The translations under genes were made by a program, and so were the position numbers. From Oscillospiraceae bacterium (GTDB lineage: Bacteria > Bacillota > Clostridia > Oscillospirales > Oscillospiraceae), in the NCBI GenBank assembly GCA_017436785.1, contig JAFSCK010000009.1, positions 1 through 34,381 on the forward strand: DNA of 34,381 bases, written 5' to 3'. The notes under the pieces are model-generated. The model was not told the DNA's origin, searched no databases, and saw only the letters and a program-made list of their open reading frames with translations. Below, piece by piece: positions 3,119 through 34,181 of this stretch (within the stretch, counting starts at the first letter, position 1; the number at the start of each line of letters is the position of its first letter).

Positions 3119-5245
3119 ATGAGCGTATTAACTGACCTGATTTATGGCGGCTCCAATGCCGTTGCCGGCCTGACCGAAGGCGCTGTCAATGATGCCATTG
3201 CAAAGTATGGCGCAGACAAGGAAATCAGCTTCCCCGATACTGCCTATTATTTCCCCACGATTTACGCTGCCACCGGCGTGAAGGTGAAGACACTGGGTGA
3301 TCTGACCGCCTGTGTGGGCGTGCTGAAGAGCCTCATCACCAATCAGGAGGACTTGGGTCAGGCATTGAATGCCGGTCTTGCTACCGCTGTGGGCGCTGAG
3401 ATCATCGAGGGCCTGAAGTACGTGGAGGGCGGCAATCCCTATGAAAATGAGTCCGGCATCGGCTTTGTTCCCGATCCCATCATCCGCTCTCTGGGTGTGC
3501 CGCTGGTCACTGGCGATATCCCTGGCGTTGCTGTTGTGCTGGGCAAGGCAGAGAATGCAGCGGATGTTGTGAATGTGGTGAAGGATTACCAGTCCAAGGG
3601 CATCATGACCTTCATGGTGGGTGATGTCATCGAGCAGTGCATGGACGGCGGCGTGAAGATGGGTCTGGAATTCCGTGTCATCCCTCTGGGCCATGATGTA
3701 ACCAGCGTCATCCATGTCGTCACCGTGGCCATCCGTGCGGCCCTGATCTTCGGCAATGTGAAGCCCGGCGATCTGGCAGGCCTGCTGACTTACACCAAGG
3801 AGCGCGTTCCCGCCTTTGTCAACACCTTCGGCGCCATCGATGCTGTTGTGGTTTCCGCCGGTGCCGGCGCCATCGCACTGGGCTTCCCTGTTGTGGTGGA
3901 CATCGATCTGGGCGAGAATCAGGTTCCCGGTGCGCTGGAATCCGTCTGTGACCATGCCGAGACCGTGAAGAAGTCTCTGGAGCTGCGCTCCATCAAGATC
4001 AAGGTGAAGGAACTGCCCATCCCTGTGGCTTTCGCTGCCGCCTTCGAGGGTGAGATTATCCGCAAGTCCGACATGCACAACGAGTTCTGGTCCTCCAAGA
4101 ATCCCACCGCTGAGCTGGTGGTTATGCGGGATATGAACGAGATCGAGGATCACAAGATCACCATCGTCGGCCCCGATCTGGCAGATGCCAAGGAACTGGC
4201 TCTGGCTACTTACGTGGAAGTCGCCGGCAAGAAGATGCAGGTGGACTTCGAGTCTGTTATCGAAAGAAAGTTCCACGCATGGTTTAACTATATGGAAGGT
4301 GTCATGCACACCGGCCAGCGCAATCAGGTCCGTGTCCGTGTTTCCAATGCCGCCTTTGAGGCCGGTCTGAACCTCAAGCATTTTGCTGAGGTCCTTTATG
4401 TCATGATCATGGACGAGTTCGACGCAGTCGTGGACAAGTGCCAGATCACCCTGATCACCGACGCTGCCGAGGCAGGCAAATTCCGGGATGAGATGGCAAT
4501 GCCCCGCTATGCTGCCCGTGACGAGCGTCTGGATTCCATGACCGACGAGTCTGTGGACCGCTACTATACCTGCATTCTGTGCCAGTCCTTCGCCCCCGCC
4601 CACTGCTGCGTGGTTACTCCCGAGCGTCTGGGCCTGTGCGGTGCCGTTTCTTGGCTGGATGCCAAGGCTACCAATGAGCTGGATCCCAATGGTCCCTGCC
4701 AGCCCATCTTCAAGGAAGGCTGCACCGACGAGCGCACCGGCCGCTATGCAAGTGTTGACAAGGCAGTATTTGATTCCACCCACGGCGCAGTTGAGAGCGT
4801 GACTTTGTACTCCATTCTGGAGGATCCCATGACCTCCTGCGGCTGCTTTGAGTGTATCTGCGGCATCGAGCCTATGTCCAACGGCTTCATCGTGGTCAAC
4901 CGGGAATTTAAGGGCATGACCCCTGCCGGCATGACCTTCGGCGAGCTGGCCTCCTGCACCGGCGGCGGTGTTCAGACCCCCGGCTACATGGGCCATGGCC
5001 GTCACTTCATCTCCTCCAAGAAGTTCATCTCCGCCGAGGGCGGCATCGAGCGTATCGTCTGGATGCCCAAGGAGCTGAAGGACGATGTGGGCGAGCGGCT
5101 GAACAAGACTGCCAAGGAGCTCTATGGCATCGACAACTTCACCGATTTCGTTGCCGATGAGACCATCACCACCGACTGCGAAGAGCTGCTGAACTGGCTG
5201 ACGGAGAAGAACCACCCCGTTCTGGGCATGGAGCCTCTGATGTAA
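3119..5245 (+). CDS. acsB: Acetyl-CoA synthase beta subunit of CODH/ACS
   Basis: A 708-residue protein starting at ATG 3119 behind GGGAGG. It joins CO, the corrinoid-bound methyl group and CoA into acetyl-CoA at the nickel-iron A-cluster in the cytoplasm. All A-cluster ligands are present with the same spacing as in the Moorella enzyme: Cys485, Cys488, Cys497 and Cys507 for the Fe4S4 cube, and the Cys574-Gly575-Cys576 motif for the distal nickel, with Cys488 in the bridging position. The N-terminal domain that contacts CO dehydrogenase, the middle domain and the C-terminal A-cluster domain are all there; the length is close to the 729 residues of Moorella. Codon use is highly biased, suggesting abundant expression. 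The CODH and CFeSP subunits are not in the window. A structured element follows the stop codon directly. Confidence 0.97.
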   Translation: MSVLTDLIYGGSNAVAGLTEGAVNDAIAKYGADKEISFPDTAYYFPTIYAATGVKVKTLGDLTACVGVLKSLITNQEDLGQALNAGLATAVGAEIIEGLKYVEGGNPYENESGIGFVPDPIIRSLGVPLVTGDIPGVAVVLGKAENAADVVNVVKDYQSKGIMTFMVGDVIEQCMDGGVKMGLEFRVIPLGHDVTSVIHVVTVAIRAALIFGNVKPGDLAGLLTYTKERVPAFVNTFGAIDAVVVSAGAGAIALGFPVVVDIDLGENQVPGALESVCDHAETVKKSLELRSIKIKVKELPIPVAFAAAFEGEIIRKSDMHNEFWSSKNPTAELVVMRDMNEIEDHKITIVGPDLADAKELALATYVEVAGKKMQVDFESVIERKFHAWFNYMEGVMHTGQRNQVRVRVSNAAFEAGLNLKHFAEVLYVMIMDEFDAVVDKCQITLITDAAEAGKFRDEMAMPRYAARDERLDSMTDESVDRYYTCILCQSFAPAHCCVVTPERLGLCGAVSWLDAKATNELDPNGPCQPIFKEGCTDERTGRYASVDKAVFDSTHGAVESVTLYSILEDPMTSCGCFECICGIEPMSNGFIVVNREFKGMTPAGMTFGELASCTGGGVQTPGYMGHGRHFISSKKFISAEGGIERIVWMPKELKDDVGERLNKTAKELYGIDNFTDFVADETITTDCEELLNWLTEKNHPVLGMEPLM

Positions 5246-5329
5246 GCGGCGAGCAGCCGCTGGCAATGCGAGCCTTCGGTGCGGCAATTGCCGTAACACC
5301 ACTGGGTGGTCAGCCCGGTTCGTTATTGC
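5246..5329 (+). other. Putative structured RNA element, copy A, after acsB
   Basis: Starts on the first base after the acsB stop. Hairpin GCGGC/GCCGC (5246-5260), then an outer stem GCAAT (5263-5267) with ATTGC (5325-5329) and CGAGCC (5269-5274) with GGTTCG (5317-5322). Inside are a 20-base variable part, with its own CGGC-AATT-GCCG hairpin, and AACACC-3 nt-GGGTGG. Copy B at 8441 has the same lengths and stems with compensating changes. Not recognised as a known riboswitch. Confidence 0.6.
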
Positions 5330-5350
5330 AATCATAGAAAGGAAAAAACG

Positions 5351-5377
5351 GTAGGGGAGGGGCATTGCCCCTCCCGC
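5351..5377. repeat. GTAGGGG-type palindrome in the acsB-acsV gap
   Basis: GTAGGGG followed by a hairpin GGGAGGGGCA/TGCCCCTCCC. It looks like a solo arm of the TGTAGGG palindrome family; no partner arm is seen nearby. Confidence 0.55.
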
Positions 5378-5426
5378 GCAGAGCGTCATTGCGTACTGAT
5401 TGCAATCTGCTGTGCACCAAACGCTT

Positions 5427-5538
5427 GTCATTCTGAGCGGCGCGCGGCAGAGTCGAAGAATCTTCGTACTACCATAACTGCTGTGCAGATACGATGGTGC
5501 GAAGATCCTTCGACTCGTTTCACTCGCTCAGGATGACA
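5427..5538. repeat. Palindromic dispersed element, TGTCATTCTGAGC family
   Basis: Outer inverted repeat TGTCATTCTGAGC (5427) against GCTCAGGATGACA (ends 5538) and an inner stem GAGTCGAAGAATCTTCG against CGAAGATCCTTCGACTC, with short arm sequences between the two stems. Together with copy A and the palindrome at 5351 this fills most of the 326-base gap before acsV; bases 5378-5426 show nothing I can assign. Confidence 0.8.
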
Positions 5539-5571
5539 AATCTGTACATAGACTGAAAGGAACTTCCACAA

Positions 5572-7497
5572 ATGAAAGTAACCTTCCAAATCGAGGGTGC
5601 TGCCCCTGTAATCATCGAATGCAACCTTGGCGACAACCTGCTGGAGCTGGCACGGCGGGGCAATGTGGCCATCGATGCCCCCTGCTCCGGTAACGGCTCC
5701 TGCGGCAAGTGCCGGGTAAAGCTCATCGAAGGGGAACTGGACTCTCTGAAAAGCCGCCATGTTTCCGAGGAAGAATGGGAAGCAGGCTGGCGCTTGAGCT
5801 GCAACTCCAAGGTGCTCTCCGACTGCACCGTGTTCGTGCCGGACATTGCCAGCGCTTACCAGAGCCGCATGAAGACGGCAGACCTGTCTTCTCCTAAGGA
5901 GATCGCCATTTTTGAGGATTGCCAGAATCACTTAAGAGAAAGCGGCATCCATTTTGTCAACAATTTCCGTTCCGTTGTCATCACCATGGCAGAGCCTACG
6001 CTGGATGACACCATGCCCGATAATGAGCGCTTTACTTGGGCCGTTCAGGAGGCGCTGGGGGTGGAGAAGGTCCACATCCCTTACACCGTCATGGTACGGC
6101 TGGCCTCGACCCTGCGGGAGCATGGCTTTACCGTCTGCGTCAAGGGTGAATTGGACGGAGATACCTTCCGCTGCATGGAAATCTGCGGACCGGAGGATAC
6201 CGCCATTGTGGGCTGCGCCATCGATATCGGCACCACCACGGTCACCATGGTCTTTACCGACCTGACCTCCGGAAAGCTGTTGGCCAAGGGCTCCTCCGGC
6301 AATGGCCAGATCCGCTACGGTGCCGACGTTATCAACCGCATCATTGAGCAGGGCCGCAGCGGCGGCAAGGCCAAGCTGCAAAACGCCATTATCAAGGAGA
6401 CCTTGAATCCCATCATTGCCAGCCTCTGCAAGTCTGCCGGGATCTCTGCCCGGAGCATCCTGCGGCTGAGCGTGGGCTCCAACACCACCATGAACCACCT
6501 GCTGCTGGGTGTGGATGCAGAGCCTGTCCGAATGGAGCCCTATATTCCCAGCTTCTTTGCGTGGGAAGGCTTGCTGGCAGGAGATCTGAAGCTGCCCGCC
6601 AATCCGCTGGCCCCTGTTCTCATTGCGCCCAATATCGGCTCCTATGTGGGCGGCGATATCACCGCCGGTACGCTGGCCTCCGGGATCTGGGACAAGGACG
6701 AGATGAGCCTGTTTATCGACCTTGGCACCAACGGCGAGCTGGTCTTCGGCAACCGTGACTTCCTCATGTCCTGTGCCTGCTCCGCCGGTCCTGCCTTTGA
6801 GGGCGGCGATATTTCCAGCGGTATGCGCGCCACCGACGGCGCTGTGGAAGCCTGCGTCATTGATAAGGACACCATGGAGCCCACGCTGGAGATCATTGGC
6901 GACCCGGGCCAGAAGGTGGTAGGCATCTGCGGCAGCGGTATCATTGACATGATCTCCGAGCTGTTCCGCTGCGGCATCATCAATGCCAAGGGCCTGTTCG
7001 TCCGGGAGGGCAGACGGATTCTCCGGGATGAGCATGGCATGGGCCGCTATGTGGTGGCGTTCCCTGAGGAATCCGAGACGGCACGGGAAGTCAGCCTCAA
7101 CGAGGTAGACATCGATAACTTCATCCGTGCAAAGGGTGCCATCTTCTCTGCTATTGATACGCTGCTGCAAAGTGTAGATATGACGCCGGATTGCATTGAC
7201 AAGGTCTATGTTGCCGGCGGCATCGGTTCCGGCATCAACATGCACAATGCAGTGAATATCGGTATGTTCCCCGATGTGGAGCTGGAAAAGTTCCAGTACA
7301 TCGGCAACTCTTCCCTGACCGGTGCTTATGCCATGGTGGTCAGTGACGAGGCAAATGCCAAGTGCGCCGAGGTGGCGGCCAATATGACCTATCTGGAGCT
7401 GAGTACCTATCCCGGTTATATGGACTCCTTCGTGGCAGCCTGCTTCCTGCCCCATACGGACCGCAGCCTGTTCCCCCACAGTGTGCAGGAGATGTGA
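5572..7497 (+). CDS. acsV: Reductive activator of the corrinoid iron-sulfur protein (RACo)
   Basis: A 641-residue protein that uses ATP to bring oxidised Co(II) corrinoid iron-sulfur protein back to Co(I), keeping the methyl branch active. The N-terminal ferredoxin-like domain has a [2Fe-2S] pattern: Cys38, Cys44 and Cys47 in CSGNGSCGKC, plus Cys77. A linker follows, then a large ASKHA-type ATPase domain with DIGTTTVTMVF, GGDITAGTLASG, FIDLGTNGELVFGN, EGGDISSGM and a late VAGGIGSGINMHNAVNIG motif, as expected of the DUF4445/RACo family. The length fits the family. It starts at ATG 5572 with AAAGGAA upstream. It lies after acsB across a repeat-filled gap and runs directly into the VOC gene at 7499, so these are co-transcribed. 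Membership in the acs operon supports RACo over the related methyltransferase activators (RamA type). Confidence 0.92.
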   Translation: MKVTFQIEGAAPVIIECNLGDNLLELARRGNVAIDAPCSGNGSCGKCRVKLIEGELDSLKSRHVSEEEWEAGWRLSCNSKVLSDCTVFVPDIASAYQSRMKTADLSSPKEIAIFEDCQNHLRESGIHFVNNFRSVVITMAEPTLDDTMPDNERFTWAVQEALGVEKVHIPYTVMVRLASTLREHGFTVCVKGELDGDTFRCMEICGPEDTAIVGCAIDIGTTTVTMVFTDLTSGKLLAKGSSGNGQIRYGADVINRIIEQGRSGGKAKLQNAIIKETLNPIIASLCKSAGISARSILRLSVGSNTTMNHLLLGVDAEPVRMEPYIPSFFAWEGLLAGDLKLPANPLAPVLIAPNIGSYVGGDITAGTLASGIWDKDEMSLFIDLGTNGELVFGNRDFLMSCACSAGPAFEGGDISSGMRATDGAVEACVIDKDTMEPTLEIIGDPGQKVVGICGSGIIDMISELFRCGIINAKGLFVREGRRILRDEHGMGRYVVAFPEESETAREVSLNEVDIDNFIRAKGAIFSAIDTLLQSVDMTPDCIDKVYVAGGIGSGINMHNAVNIGMFPDVELEKFQYIGNSSLTGAYAMVVSDEANAKCAEVAANMTYLELSTYPGYMDSFVAACFLPHTDRSLFPHSVQEM

Positions 7498-7498
7498 T

Positions 7499-7879
7499 AT
7501 GCTTAGCGGAAAACAGCACCATATTGCCATTATCTGCTCCGATTACGAAAAAGCCCGGGAATTTTATATCGAAAAGCTGGGCTTTGAACTGTACCGGGAA
7601 GTTTACCGTCCGGCACAGAAGGACTACTTACGGATGCTCCGCTTAGGAGACACCGTCATTGAGCTGTTTATCCGGCCCGATGCTCCCCAGCGGGTCAACA
7701 ACCCGGAGGCACAGGGCCTGCGGCACCTTGCCTTCCATGTGGAGGACATCGAACCCGTGGCAGCGTGGCTGAACAGCCGCGGCATCGAAACGGAGCCCAT
7801 CCGGGAGGACCCCTATAACGGAGGCCGCTTTACCTTCTTCAAGGACCCGGACGGGCTGCCGCTGGAATTGCACGAATGA
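7499..7879 (+). CDS. VOC family metalloprotein (glyoxalase I fold), first of a tandem pair
   Basis: 126 residues, start ATG 7499 with AGGAG in the end of acsV; it begins one base after the acsV stop, indicating tight translational coupling. Two beta-alpha-beta-beta-beta modules of the vicinal-oxygen-chelate fold are visible. Likely metal ligands sit at the family positions: His8 in HHIAI, the Glu of VIELF, a His in LRHLAFHV and the Glu of LPLELHE. The substrate cannot be read from the sequence; glyoxalase, epimerase and lyase functions all use this fold. The next VOC gene at 8060 is a paralogue with the same length and the same DPDGLPLELHE ending. Their place in an acs operon suggests a role connected with corrinoid or one-carbon chemistry, which is inference. 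Confidence 0.85.
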   Translation: MLSGKQHHIAIICSDYEKAREFYIEKLGFELYREVYRPAQKDYLRMLRLGDTVIELFIRPDAPQRVNNPEAQGLRHLAFHVEDIEPVAAWLNSRGIETEPIREDPYNGGRFTFFKDPDGLPLELHE

Positions 7880-7895
7880 TTCGTACAGAGCATAT

Positions 7896-8035
7896 TGTAG
7901 GGCGGGGTCATGACCCCGCCGAGCAGCCTCTGTTTATTACCTAGGTGTAGGCGATGAAGGGGGCCGGCATTCTGCACAGAATCAAGCTGGCAGAAAAATG
8001 TAGTGTGGTCGGCGGGGTCATGACCCCGCCCTACA
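7896..8035. repeat. Palindromic element, TGTAGGG family, 140 bp
   Basis: Both ends carry the 20-base palindrome GGCGGGGTCATGACCCCGCC, flanked outward by TGTA/TACA and inward by GA/TC, giving about 27-base perfect terminal inverted repeats. The core (about 86 bases) has no ORF. It separates the two VOC genes. Confidence 0.88.
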
Positions 8036-8059
8036 GTAATAAATAAAGGAGAAAAACGT

Positions 8060-8440
8060 ATGATTCTGGAAAACCTGCATCATCTGGCCATCGTGGTCTC
8101 TGACTACGAGAAGTCCAAGGATTTTTATGTAAATAAGCTGGGCTTTGAAGTGATCCGGGAGGAGCACCGTCAGCCTCAGAACGATATCAAGCTGGAGGTC
8201 CAGCTGGGCAACTGCATGATCGAGATCTTCGGCAAGAAGGAGCCGGAGCCTAATCATGGCAAGCCCACCCGCTGCGGTGTGTGGCATGTCTGCTTCCATG
8301 CTCCCGAGCTGGAGAAGACCATTGCGGAGCTGAACGCCGTGGGCATCCCCACCGACCCCATTATGGTCAATGCCTCCAACGGCAAGCGGATCTGCTTCTT
8401 CTATGATCCTGACGGCCTGCCTCTGGAGCTCCACGAGTAA
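8060..8440 (+). CDS. VOC family metalloprotein, second of a tandem pair
   Basis: 126 residues, ATG 8060 behind AAAGGAG. It is clearly a paralogue of the gene at 7499: both share HHLAI/HHIAI, SDYEKxxxFYxxKLGFE, an xIE(I/L)F strand and DPDGLPLELHE. Ligand candidates are His8, Glu55 (MIEIF), the His of VWHVCFH and the terminal Glu. Divergence in the middle (residues 38-75) suggests different substrates. The gap to the first copy contains the 140-base palindromic element, and the stop codon is followed at once by structured element copy B. The specific reaction is not assignable. Confidence 0.85.
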   Translation: MILENLHHLAIVVSDYEKSKDFYVNKLGFEVIREEHRQPQNDIKLEVQLGNCMIEIFGKKEPEPNHGKPTRCGVWHVCFHAPELEKTIAELNAVGIPTDPIMVNASNGKRICFFYDPDGLPLELHE

Positions 8441-8525
8441 GCAGGTATGCACCTGCAGGCAGTACGAGCCTGGGGCCTGACCGGATGACCAACACCTATG
8501 GGTGGGCAGCCCGGTTCGGCACTGC
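8441..8525 (+). other. Putative structured RNA element, copy B, after the second VOC gene
   Basis: Starts directly after the stop codon. Hairpin GCAGGT/ACCTGC (8441-8456), outer stem GCAGT (8459-8463) with ACTGC (8521-8525), CGAGCC (8465-8470) with GGTTCG (8513-8518), a 20-base variable part and AACACC-3 nt-GGGTGG-1 nt-CAGCCC. Its spacings match copy A at 5246 base for base except one base in the first hairpin. Confidence 0.6.
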
Positions 8526-8561
8526 TGTGAAAATTAGATAGTAAAAGGAAACAGAAAACAA

Positions 8562-9173
8562 ATGCAAATCGAAAACCACAAGGAAGAAGTACCCTTTGCC
8601 CATTATGAGGAAAAGTTCCGCGCTTTGGATCCTGCTGAGGTTATGGCGCGGCTGCAGGCTGTGACTTGGGATGGCGCAGAATTTACGGTGGCGCTGCTGG
8701 GCCGCAGTTTTGCCATTACCCATCCTGATTACGCCATCCGGGCCTTGGACGGCGGGAAGCTGCCGCCTCTGCCTACCCAGACCTTCCTGCTGCGCTACCT
8801 GCTGGAAAGCCGGGATGTTGCTTGGACGGGGGAGTGGAAGACCTTCCGGGAAATGCCCTGGGGCGAAATGTACATCAAGCCCTACACCGGCCGTTGTCTG
8901 ACCCGGGCAGCCTTCACCTTCGGTACCCGGGTGGCGGCATTCAAGGCGGCCGCGGAAAAAATGGGTGCAGAGCCGGTAAAGCACGGTGATGCAGGCTACC
9001 GGTTCGACCTGATCGGCGGCTATCAGATGCAGATCCTTGTCTGGGAGGGCGACGACGAATTTCCGCCCAATGCCCAGATCCTGTACTCCGACAATTTCGC
9101 CGACGGCTTCGCTGCCGAAGACCGGGTGGTGGCAGGCGATATCCTGATCTCCACCATTAAGAGCTATATGTGA
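8562..9173 (+). CDS. DUF3786 domain protein
   Basis: 203 residues starting at ATG 8562; AAAGGA lies about 12 bases upstream, a somewhat long spacing. The sequence fits the DUF3786 family: an N-terminal helical part, a (V/L)LGRSFAITHPDY strand, a LPTQTFLLRYLLES helix, a Trp-rich middle (WTGEWKTFREMPWGEMY) and a C-terminal QMQILVWEGDDEFPPNAQILY segment ending in a predicted beta-helix fold. From what I know of the family, it often lies beside corrinoid and CODH/ACS genes, and the location here agrees; the biochemical role is unknown. It is the last gene of the acs unit, followed by a terminator at 9178. No cysteine motif is present, so a metal-cluster role for this version is unlikely. Confidence 0.8.
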   Translation: MQIENHKEEVPFAHYEEKFRALDPAEVMARLQAVTWDGAEFTVALLGRSFAITHPDYAIRALDGGKLPPLPTQTFLLRYLLESRDVAWTGEWKTFREMPWGEMYIKPYTGRCLTRAAFTFGTRVAAFKAAAEKMGAEPVKHGDAGYRFDLIGGYQMQILVWEGDDEFPPNAQILYSDNFADGFAAEDRVVAGDILISTIKSYM

Positions 9174-15168: not shown

Positions 15169-15307
15169 TGTAGGGCGGGGTCATGACCCCGCCGATCAGG
15201 TATGGACTACAGCTCAGGTATCAAACGACTGTAGACGAGGATTTTTGGGGAATACTGACAGCTCAATGAATTTGAGTGGGTCGGCGGGATCATGACCCCG
15301 CCCTACA
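15169..15307. repeat. Palindromic element, TGTAGGG family, 139 bp
   Basis: Ends carry the same GGCGGGGTCATGACCCCGCC arms as the element at 7896 (right arm has GGGAT instead of GGGGT) inside TGTA/TACA ends. Size is nearly equal to the 7896 copy but the core is unrelated. It sits in the leader of rnpA. Confidence 0.88.
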
Positions 15308-19092: not shown

Positions 19093-19112
19093 ATTTTTGA
19101 CAATTTGATAAC

Positions 19113-19305
19113 CCAATGCGTGGCGGCTTCCGCGAGGAACGGGGGCTGCTGAACAAGATAACCGGGTGGGAATCCCGGACGGTACCGCCGCTGTATATGC
19201 TGAGGGAGAGGCCAATGGTGAAAACCAGTCACTGGGGAGACCCGGGAAGGCAAGGCTTCTTTGTGCGAACGCACTAAGGCATGAGTCAGAAGACCTACGC
19301 ATTGG
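19113..19305 (+). promoter_or_regulatory. Cobalamin (B12) riboswitch
   Basis: The closing P1 stem is CCAATGCGT (19113-19121) with ACGCATTGG (19297-19305), nine pairs. Inside are the conserved blocks of the class: GGGAATCCCGGACGGTACCG then CCGCTGTA, the GAGGGAGAGGCCAATGG region, CCAGTCACTGGGGAGACCCG followed by GGGAAGGC, and the B12 box AGTCAGAAGACCTAC near the 3' end. When adenosylcobalamin or a related corrinoid binds, the downstream genes are switched off. It controls the DUF4430 and ECF S-component genes. Confidence 0.95.
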
Positions 19306-19356
19306 TGTCTCCTCACTCCTGCGCGTTTATGGGGGTGTGCGTTGTCGCAGAAAAAC

Positions 19357-33926: not shown

Positions 33927-33999
33927 TCCTACCCGGAAAGTGCATAAGATATTCCATGGAAAGTTAAATTATCGTTTAATGCACTGTTGAAAAAATACA

Positions 34000-34129
34000 T
34001 GTCATTGCGAACCAGCGCGCACGCTGGTGTGGCAATCCTCATCAGATGTCCGCGCAGAAACAGAAATTGGTGGCAAGTACAAATTTGCGGGAGATTGCCA
34101 CGTCGGCCTACGGCCTCCTCGCAATGACA
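34000..34129. repeat. Palindromic dispersed element, TGTCATTGCGA family, copy 8 (reversed arms)
   Basis: The left end carries the hairpin CCAGCG-CGCA-CGCTGG and the right end the GGCC-TAC-GGCC arm, so arm types are swapped relative to the other copies. The core, read in reverse, shares TTTCTGCGCGGA with copy 3. Confidence 0.88.
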
Positions 34130-34181
34130 TACGTTTTTCGGCAGCGATCAGATAAACTGCAATTTATTTCAAAAATACCCC

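Follow-up and report, generated by a model that had tools for sequence, protein, structure and literature searches.

A non-coding repeat that abuts stop codons in genomes of one Oscillospiraceae genus, probably mobile and not an acetyl-CoA synthase regulator

The attC site of integrons, at which IntI recombines gene cassettes, is an element that follows the stop codon of its cassette. In Escherichia coli, repetitive extragenic palindromic (REP) elements have been reported to lie behind stop codons at distances that vary, and those fewer than 16 nt from the stop are reported to stall ribosomes (PMC12306157). Here we describe a repeat that in many copies abuts the stop codon to the base. Two copies, hereafter units, lie among acetyl-CoA synthase (acs) genes in a stretch of 34,381 nt from an Oscillospiraceae bacterium (assembly GCA_017436785.1, contig JAFSCK010000009.1, positions 1 to 34,381), which we call the window. 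The original prediction, made from this sequence, saw in them a structured RNA-like element, either a cis-regulator or processing element tied to acs genes or a new mobile structured repeat.

Two units and the family they belong to

Both look-alike stretches were found on the + strand, each beginning directly behind a stop codon as had been claimed (acsB TAA, 5243-5245; VOC TAA, 8438-8440). Unit 1 (5246..5322, +) lies behind acsB, with a core up to CCCGGTTCG and a variable tail to about 5336, and unit 2 (8441..8518, +) lies behind the second VOC gene, with a variable tail to about 8532. Their near-gapless match was borne out, since 66 of 108 columns are identical in an alignment with short flanks, with few gaps within the units; the alignment tool puts mean column identity at 81%. 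The hairpins GCGGC/GCCGC and GCAGGT/ACCTGC, and the difference between GCAAT/ATTGC and GCAGT/ACTGC, are present as described. Folding z-scores against shuffles are modest (-2.8 and -1.7 for the two stretches), and the likeness goes beyond chance because there are further copies in the same genome and a family across the genus. Rfam gives no family above its gathering cut-off over either unit, in agreement with the remark that no known riboswitch class was recognised, and at E<=10 over 5200-8600 it returned five sub-threshold matches, none covering either unit. The sole Rfam match in the window, a cobalamin riboswitch at 19101-19316 (67.4 bits, above the gathering score), is unrelated to the units. 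A phage or plasmid origin was rejected, unit 1 having no blastn match in either collection at 1e-5.

Both units belong to a repeat that is non-coding and interspersed, measures about 76-90 bp and bears a 6-bp hairpin at one of its ends; certain genomes of a single genus hold it in abundance. Within the genome from which the window comes (G000; 174 contigs; 91% complete with 7% contamination; G, C and L numbers are our labels for genomes, contigs and loci), more copies turned up in a pattern search, in tandem on contig C60 and on C92, where the copy likewise begins at a TAA. A covariance model built from six copies (R1) had matches at E<=1 under strict filters in 21 of 41 genomes from the genus, and as many as 51 in a single genome. 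A second model built from 61 copies (R2) was run on eight genomes picked for carrying a unit at acsB, hence not a random sample, and among the best 150 candidates per genome it found 15 copies in G000, 41 in G099, 104 in G107, 132 in G074, 110 in G030, 75 in G028, 5 in G113 and 104 in G143. Its matches in the window are 5246-5336 and 8441-8532, although both models include these two copies and their scores are so by construction. The order-wide scan covered 295 genomes, few of them of the genus, with the best 15 candidates scored in each genome shown; four matched at 1e-6, namely G000, G001 of the same genus and one genome each from two other families, with 1 and 2 copies. Among named genomes, scanning with a 26-position pattern gave one record, JAFTXW010000017.1 (Oscillospiraceae bacterium RGIG4249, roe deer colon). 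We found no account of such a repeat in this group in the open-licence literature, which is weak evidence of novelty.

Precise placement at stop codons

Genes for the analysis of placement were called from codon usage, with nine window genes as the training set. Not one of 104 copies lay inside a called gene when end overlaps of up to 30 nt were allowed (three start 11-18 nt short of a called gene's end), and among the 62 copies having an upstream gene on the same strand, 19 stood at offset 0, that is, on the base directly behind the stop codon. Two stretches totalling 783 kb, chosen for their R2 matches regardless of context, had 7 of 14 copies (389 kb of G107) and 9 of 22 copies (394 kb of G143) within 3 nt of a stop; in the G143 stretch 2 weak matches of 37 overlap a called gene. 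A regular expression using hairpin forms already seen found 34 units in the same 783 kb, 20 of them with a gene end no more than 300 nt upstream and 11 of these 20 at offset -1 or 0. Control motifs, which need not start at the ends of their elements, gave 0 of 191 at -1 or 0 (71 GTAG palindromes, 45 GTCATTGCGA and 75 CTTCCCC); their distances were spread with no peak elsewhere, except that some CTTCCCC copies are terminator-like hairpins 3-7 nt behind a stop. Single units at stops are in sense orientation, and TAA, TAG and TGA hosts all occur, the last two ruling out the TAA trinucleotide as a target. Placement at stop codons is precise.

The genes whose stops are abutted are diverse. They include acsB and its paralogue, VOC, yicC-like, uxaC-like, purF, rubrerythrin, KDPG aldolase, pyrF, asnS and thyA-like genes, as well as fchA, acsC, leuS-like, response regulator and ABC permease genes; except for acsB and the VOC gene, these names were assigned by eye from protein ends. 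Behind acsB, a unit was present at 8 of 30 and 2 of 40 loci (10/70 in all), each within 0-2 nt, three of the ten (L132, L150 and L223) looking by eye like divergent or shortened forms. An eleventh, in G012, was known beforehand as a match and lies outside the 70 loci. One acsB frame (L227, contig G121:C20) has a single in-frame TAG near its 3' end. The acsB paralogue carries a unit at 5 of 19 usable loci (20 fetched), four at offset 0 and one 5 nt off; G000 (L113) and G143 likewise have a unit at offset 0 behind this gene. At the paralogue of G061 (L280), an apparent deletion remnant of a unit, GCGGCGAATTGC, stands between stop and terminator.

Occupancy of the same gene end differs between species, and the acsB paralogue has empty sites too. 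At the VOC gene, four of five relatives have an empty site, TAA-GAGGTGGCT-ATG (G065, G007, G093 and G015), and the fifth, G018, has a different unit there. At fchA, 5 of 18 parsed loci carry a unit and 13 are empty (12 of 30 loci were unparsed), the empty sites being 16-50 nt spacers that contain a ribosome site.

Units occur in three settings: singly at a stop codon, as head-out pairs within terminal inverted repeats, and in tandem or nested arrays. G018 has eight composites of 211-214 bp in which unit pairs lie head-out inside a 16-bp terminal inverted repeat, with no target site duplication evident by eye, and similar composites occur in G107. Terminal inverted repeats were not seen at single stop-abutting units. 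The G018 genome (2.3 Mb) has 234 matches, at up to 2 mismatches, to this 16-bp repeat (GATAAATTATCGTTTA), which also flanks several unrelated inner palindromic modules, as interchangeable cargo between constant ends.

A hairpin that covaries with its flank

The consensus of 61 copies runs GCGGCGAGTCGCCGC, N, GACAATNCG, a variable stretch, TCGTTACACCATTGGGTACCGCTCGGTTCG and then a variable tail. The first hairpin, P0, covaries across the family; besides this support it is seen in sequence and fold at 5246..5260 (+) in unit 1 and at 8441..8456 (+) in unit 2, where it has 6 bp and the loop ATGC. The strongest covariation, absent from the original prediction, joins the loop to downstream bases: two loop bases covary with the two bases preceding AAT (GT/AC, GC/GC, AT/AT, GG/CC). 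This second helix spans 5253..5264 (+) in unit 1, loop GC at 5253-5254 being complementary to GC at 5263-5264, and 8449..8460 (+) in unit 2, with loop GC at 8449-8450 and its complement at 8459-8460.

Pairing was scored on an alignment (A4) of 61 of 72 candidate sequences, 11 having been excluded as divergent or redundant. P0 and the loop pairing together had 94.0% of cells paired versus 79.8% after shuffling, and a covariation score of 0.366 versus 0.112 shuffled and 0.016-0.127 in slid controls, the shuffles leaving relatedness in place. In the loop-to-flank helix 96.7% of cells were paired; both sides had changed in 31 cells, and in none had one side alone. The column-pair scan used 97 unique sequences from 104 matches, after 4 were dropped as short or misplaced and 3 as identical. 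Under other parses, loop complementarity was 34 of 46 unique blocks when anchored on AAT (20 of 117 copies dropped), 62 of 87 under a lax parse and 27 of 74 unique blocks in one that carries a frame error from 7-bp stems. By eye, G004 has copies with GAGTC...GAC and GGTGCC...GGC side by side, each matched within itself.

Of the stems named in the original prediction, only the first hairpin covaried; the outer GCAAT/ATTGC-type and inner CGAGCC/GGTTCG stems were without family-wide support. The outer stem (P1) was rejected at stop-abutting units, where the mean longest helix was 3.87 versus 3.84 shuffled (31 of 34 units), and in other units (100 of 138) it showed a small excess of 3.66 versus 3.54, with 2.6% of shuffles as high. 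The inner stem (P2) was rejected on a covariation score of 0.102 versus 0.096 shuffled; its pairing was 72.7 versus 70.7 percent, with 6 of 500 shuffles as high. If the loop pairing were a simple H-type RNA pseudoknot, a 2-nt linker would have to cross the 6-bp stem, which general geometry rather than computation suggests is sterically unlikely. Mismatches in P0 were 9 G-T versus 8 A-C (87 unique blocks, lax parse), and since G-T is no commoner than A-C there is no sign of selection on an RNA strand, as expected for a constraint at the DNA level.

Mobility, its rivals and known systems

Taken together, we consider the unit to be, with a probability of about 0.68, a non-autonomous mobile repeat that acts at the DNA level, resembles REPs and miniature inverted-repeat transposable elements (MITEs) and has an unusual precision for stop codons. 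It is no acs-specific ligand sensor. Its many copies, sequences that are somewhat particular to a genome, arrangement in tandem and in inverted pairs, and empty sites all fit the new mobile structured repeat that the original prediction had offered as its other option. We infer mobility from the number of copies, from sites that are empty and from nesting, rather than from observed movement. Among 38 hand-picked stop-abutting units, mean identity was 0.757 for pairs from one genome, 0.737 for pairs at the same gene in different genomes and 0.720 for all others, small differences that point to both lineage-specific spread and inheritance. An enzyme working at the DNA level would copy the element, the hairpin and the loop-to-flank pairing would be features of the enzyme's substrate, and either insertion or later survival would be focused on the base behind the stop codon. 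In mRNA, a hairpin directly behind the stop might delay the ribosome as it terminates or protect the 3' end, much as E. coli REPs close to stops are reported to do.

Several points weigh against this reading. No transposase, terminal junction or target duplication was proved, and no autonomous partner was found, the sole enzyme family searched being Y1 (PF01797), whose presence does not follow the number of copies. In the set of 62 copies with an upstream gene, 43 are off offset 0 (range -18 to 1393), and at the acsB paralogue there is one unit 5 nt behind the stop and a unit-like stretch 54 nt behind it (L274). The polarity of the empty sites is something that we infer. Occupancy of eight tips on a 30-genome acsB tree takes 4 changes, versus a shuffled mean of 7.2 with 0.25% as low, and this clustering implies that part of the distribution is vertical. 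Finally, the effect that the unit may have on ribosomes or 3' ends is borrowed from stop-proximal E. coli REPs.

Within the mobile-repeat reading, we suggest tentatively that insertion could be guided to the exact end of translation, directly behind any type of stop and in sense orientation, because exact-zero placement at many genes is hard to obtain from random insertion with mild selection. The target would then be read via mRNA or the terminating ribosome, and not from DNA sequence alone.

Alternatively, the unit could be a vertically kept RNA element of 3' untranslated regions with a host function in termination, stability or coupling, its placement being held by selection and not by insertion. 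The same genes carry units in several species (acsB, its paralogue acsB2, fchA, purF, rubrerythrin and KDPG aldolase), in sense orientation at stops and with the clustered occupancy on the acsB tree, as this would have it; however, 60 of 70 acsB loci have no unit, units are slightly closer to others of their own genome than to same-gene units elsewhere, P0 has no G-U bias, and the identical unit type occurs in MITE-like pairs and tandem arrays, all of which makes this account rather unlikely.

That the unit is a REP mobilised by a REP-associated Y1 tyrosine transposase (RAYT) is improbable. A short hairpin, high copy number, pairs and clusters would suit it, and at 3 of 70 loci RAYT-like genes, recognised by eye, begin at the acsB stop (2) or 1 nt behind it (1). 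These genes (L142, L145 and L231, in G092, G079 and G108) have GTAG-type palindromes inside the reading frame, and it is such palindromes, not the unit, that they carry. PF01797 was found in 10 of 21 genomes and in none of the copy-rich G107 (98% complete), G028 and G099, and its absence from G107 weakens a RAYT as mobiliser. The unit also has no GTAG or CGTC tag, as those tags are given in PMC3733652, its conserved flank on the sense strand being NG-N3N4-AAT.

It is very improbable that the unit is a cis-regulator or riboswitch of acetyl-CoA synthase or corrinoid genes: although two copies lie near acsB in the window, another follows the acsB paralogue of the same genome (L113), and acsC and fchA also bear units, copies follow many unrelated genes (fchA, purF, leuS, rubrerythrin, permeases), so that the host-gene list refutes the exclusive form, units stand behind a stop and not at a start, 60 of 70 acsB loci are without one, and the further proposed stems have no family-wide support. 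Matches behind unrelated genes had been named beforehand as telling against a regulator, and these were found, whereas the flanking target duplications named with them were not.

In the window, unit 1 follows acsB itself (3119..5245, +; carbon monoxide dehydrogenase/acetyl-CoA synthase beta subunit; PF19436, PF03598, PF18537) and precedes a RACo-like gene with 2Fe-2S and ASKHA domains (5572..7497, +; PF14574, PF17651, PF00111). Unit 2 follows a gene of the VOC/glyoxalase fold (8060..8440, +; PF00903), one of two VOC proteins among the Pfam-named window genes, and precedes a DUF3786 gene (8562..9173, +; Pfam) that at the empty site of four relatives starts 9 nt behind the VOC stop. Other repeats are present. 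A terminal inverted repeat of the G018 type at 33963-34168 (GTTAAATTATCGTTTA at 33963-33978, imperfect partner at 34153-34168) encloses a GTCATTGCGA...TCGCAATGAC module and is another MITE-like element, and GTAG-type palindromes (GTAGGGCGGGGTCATGACCCCGCC and a variant) lie on either strand at 1194-1217, 5351-5375, 7897-7920, 8011-8034 and 15170-15193.

What sets this repeat apart is that a large fraction of its copies follow the stop with no base between, that the genes so marked recur across lineages and that each of the three stop codons is represented. If the insertion machinery senses the end of translation, this would be a new targeting principle; alternatively, selection would distinguish 0 from a few bases behind the stop, which would show the weight of structure at that position. 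Pairing between loop and flank offers a precise feature by which to look for the enzyme that acts on the unit, and in annotation acs-adjacent copies should not be read as riboswitches.

Compared with E. coli REPs as set out in PMC12306157, the unit is likewise a short extragenic hairpin repeat of high copy number with a share just downstream of stops. It differs in its 76-90 bp, in conserved sequence beyond the hairpin and in a peak offset of exactly 0 versus 1-20 nt (PMC12306157), as well as in having neither a GTAG/CGTC tag nor a RAYT link. With the GTAG- and CGTC-tagged REP superfamilies it shares palindromic repeats, dimers and clusters (PMC3733652), whereas the tag differs, and "Firmicutes" and "Clostridi-" are absent from the main text of that article. 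With BOX, RUP and SPRITE of pneumococcus (PMC3049150) and other small mobile sequences (PMC2229807) it shares a length below 250 bp and a non-coding, interspersed nature and, as in MITE-like repeats, some units lie within terminal inverted repeats and copies are tolerated near gene 3' ends. Unlike these, single units stand exactly at stops without terminal inverted repeats, and they carry the loop-to-flank complementarity.

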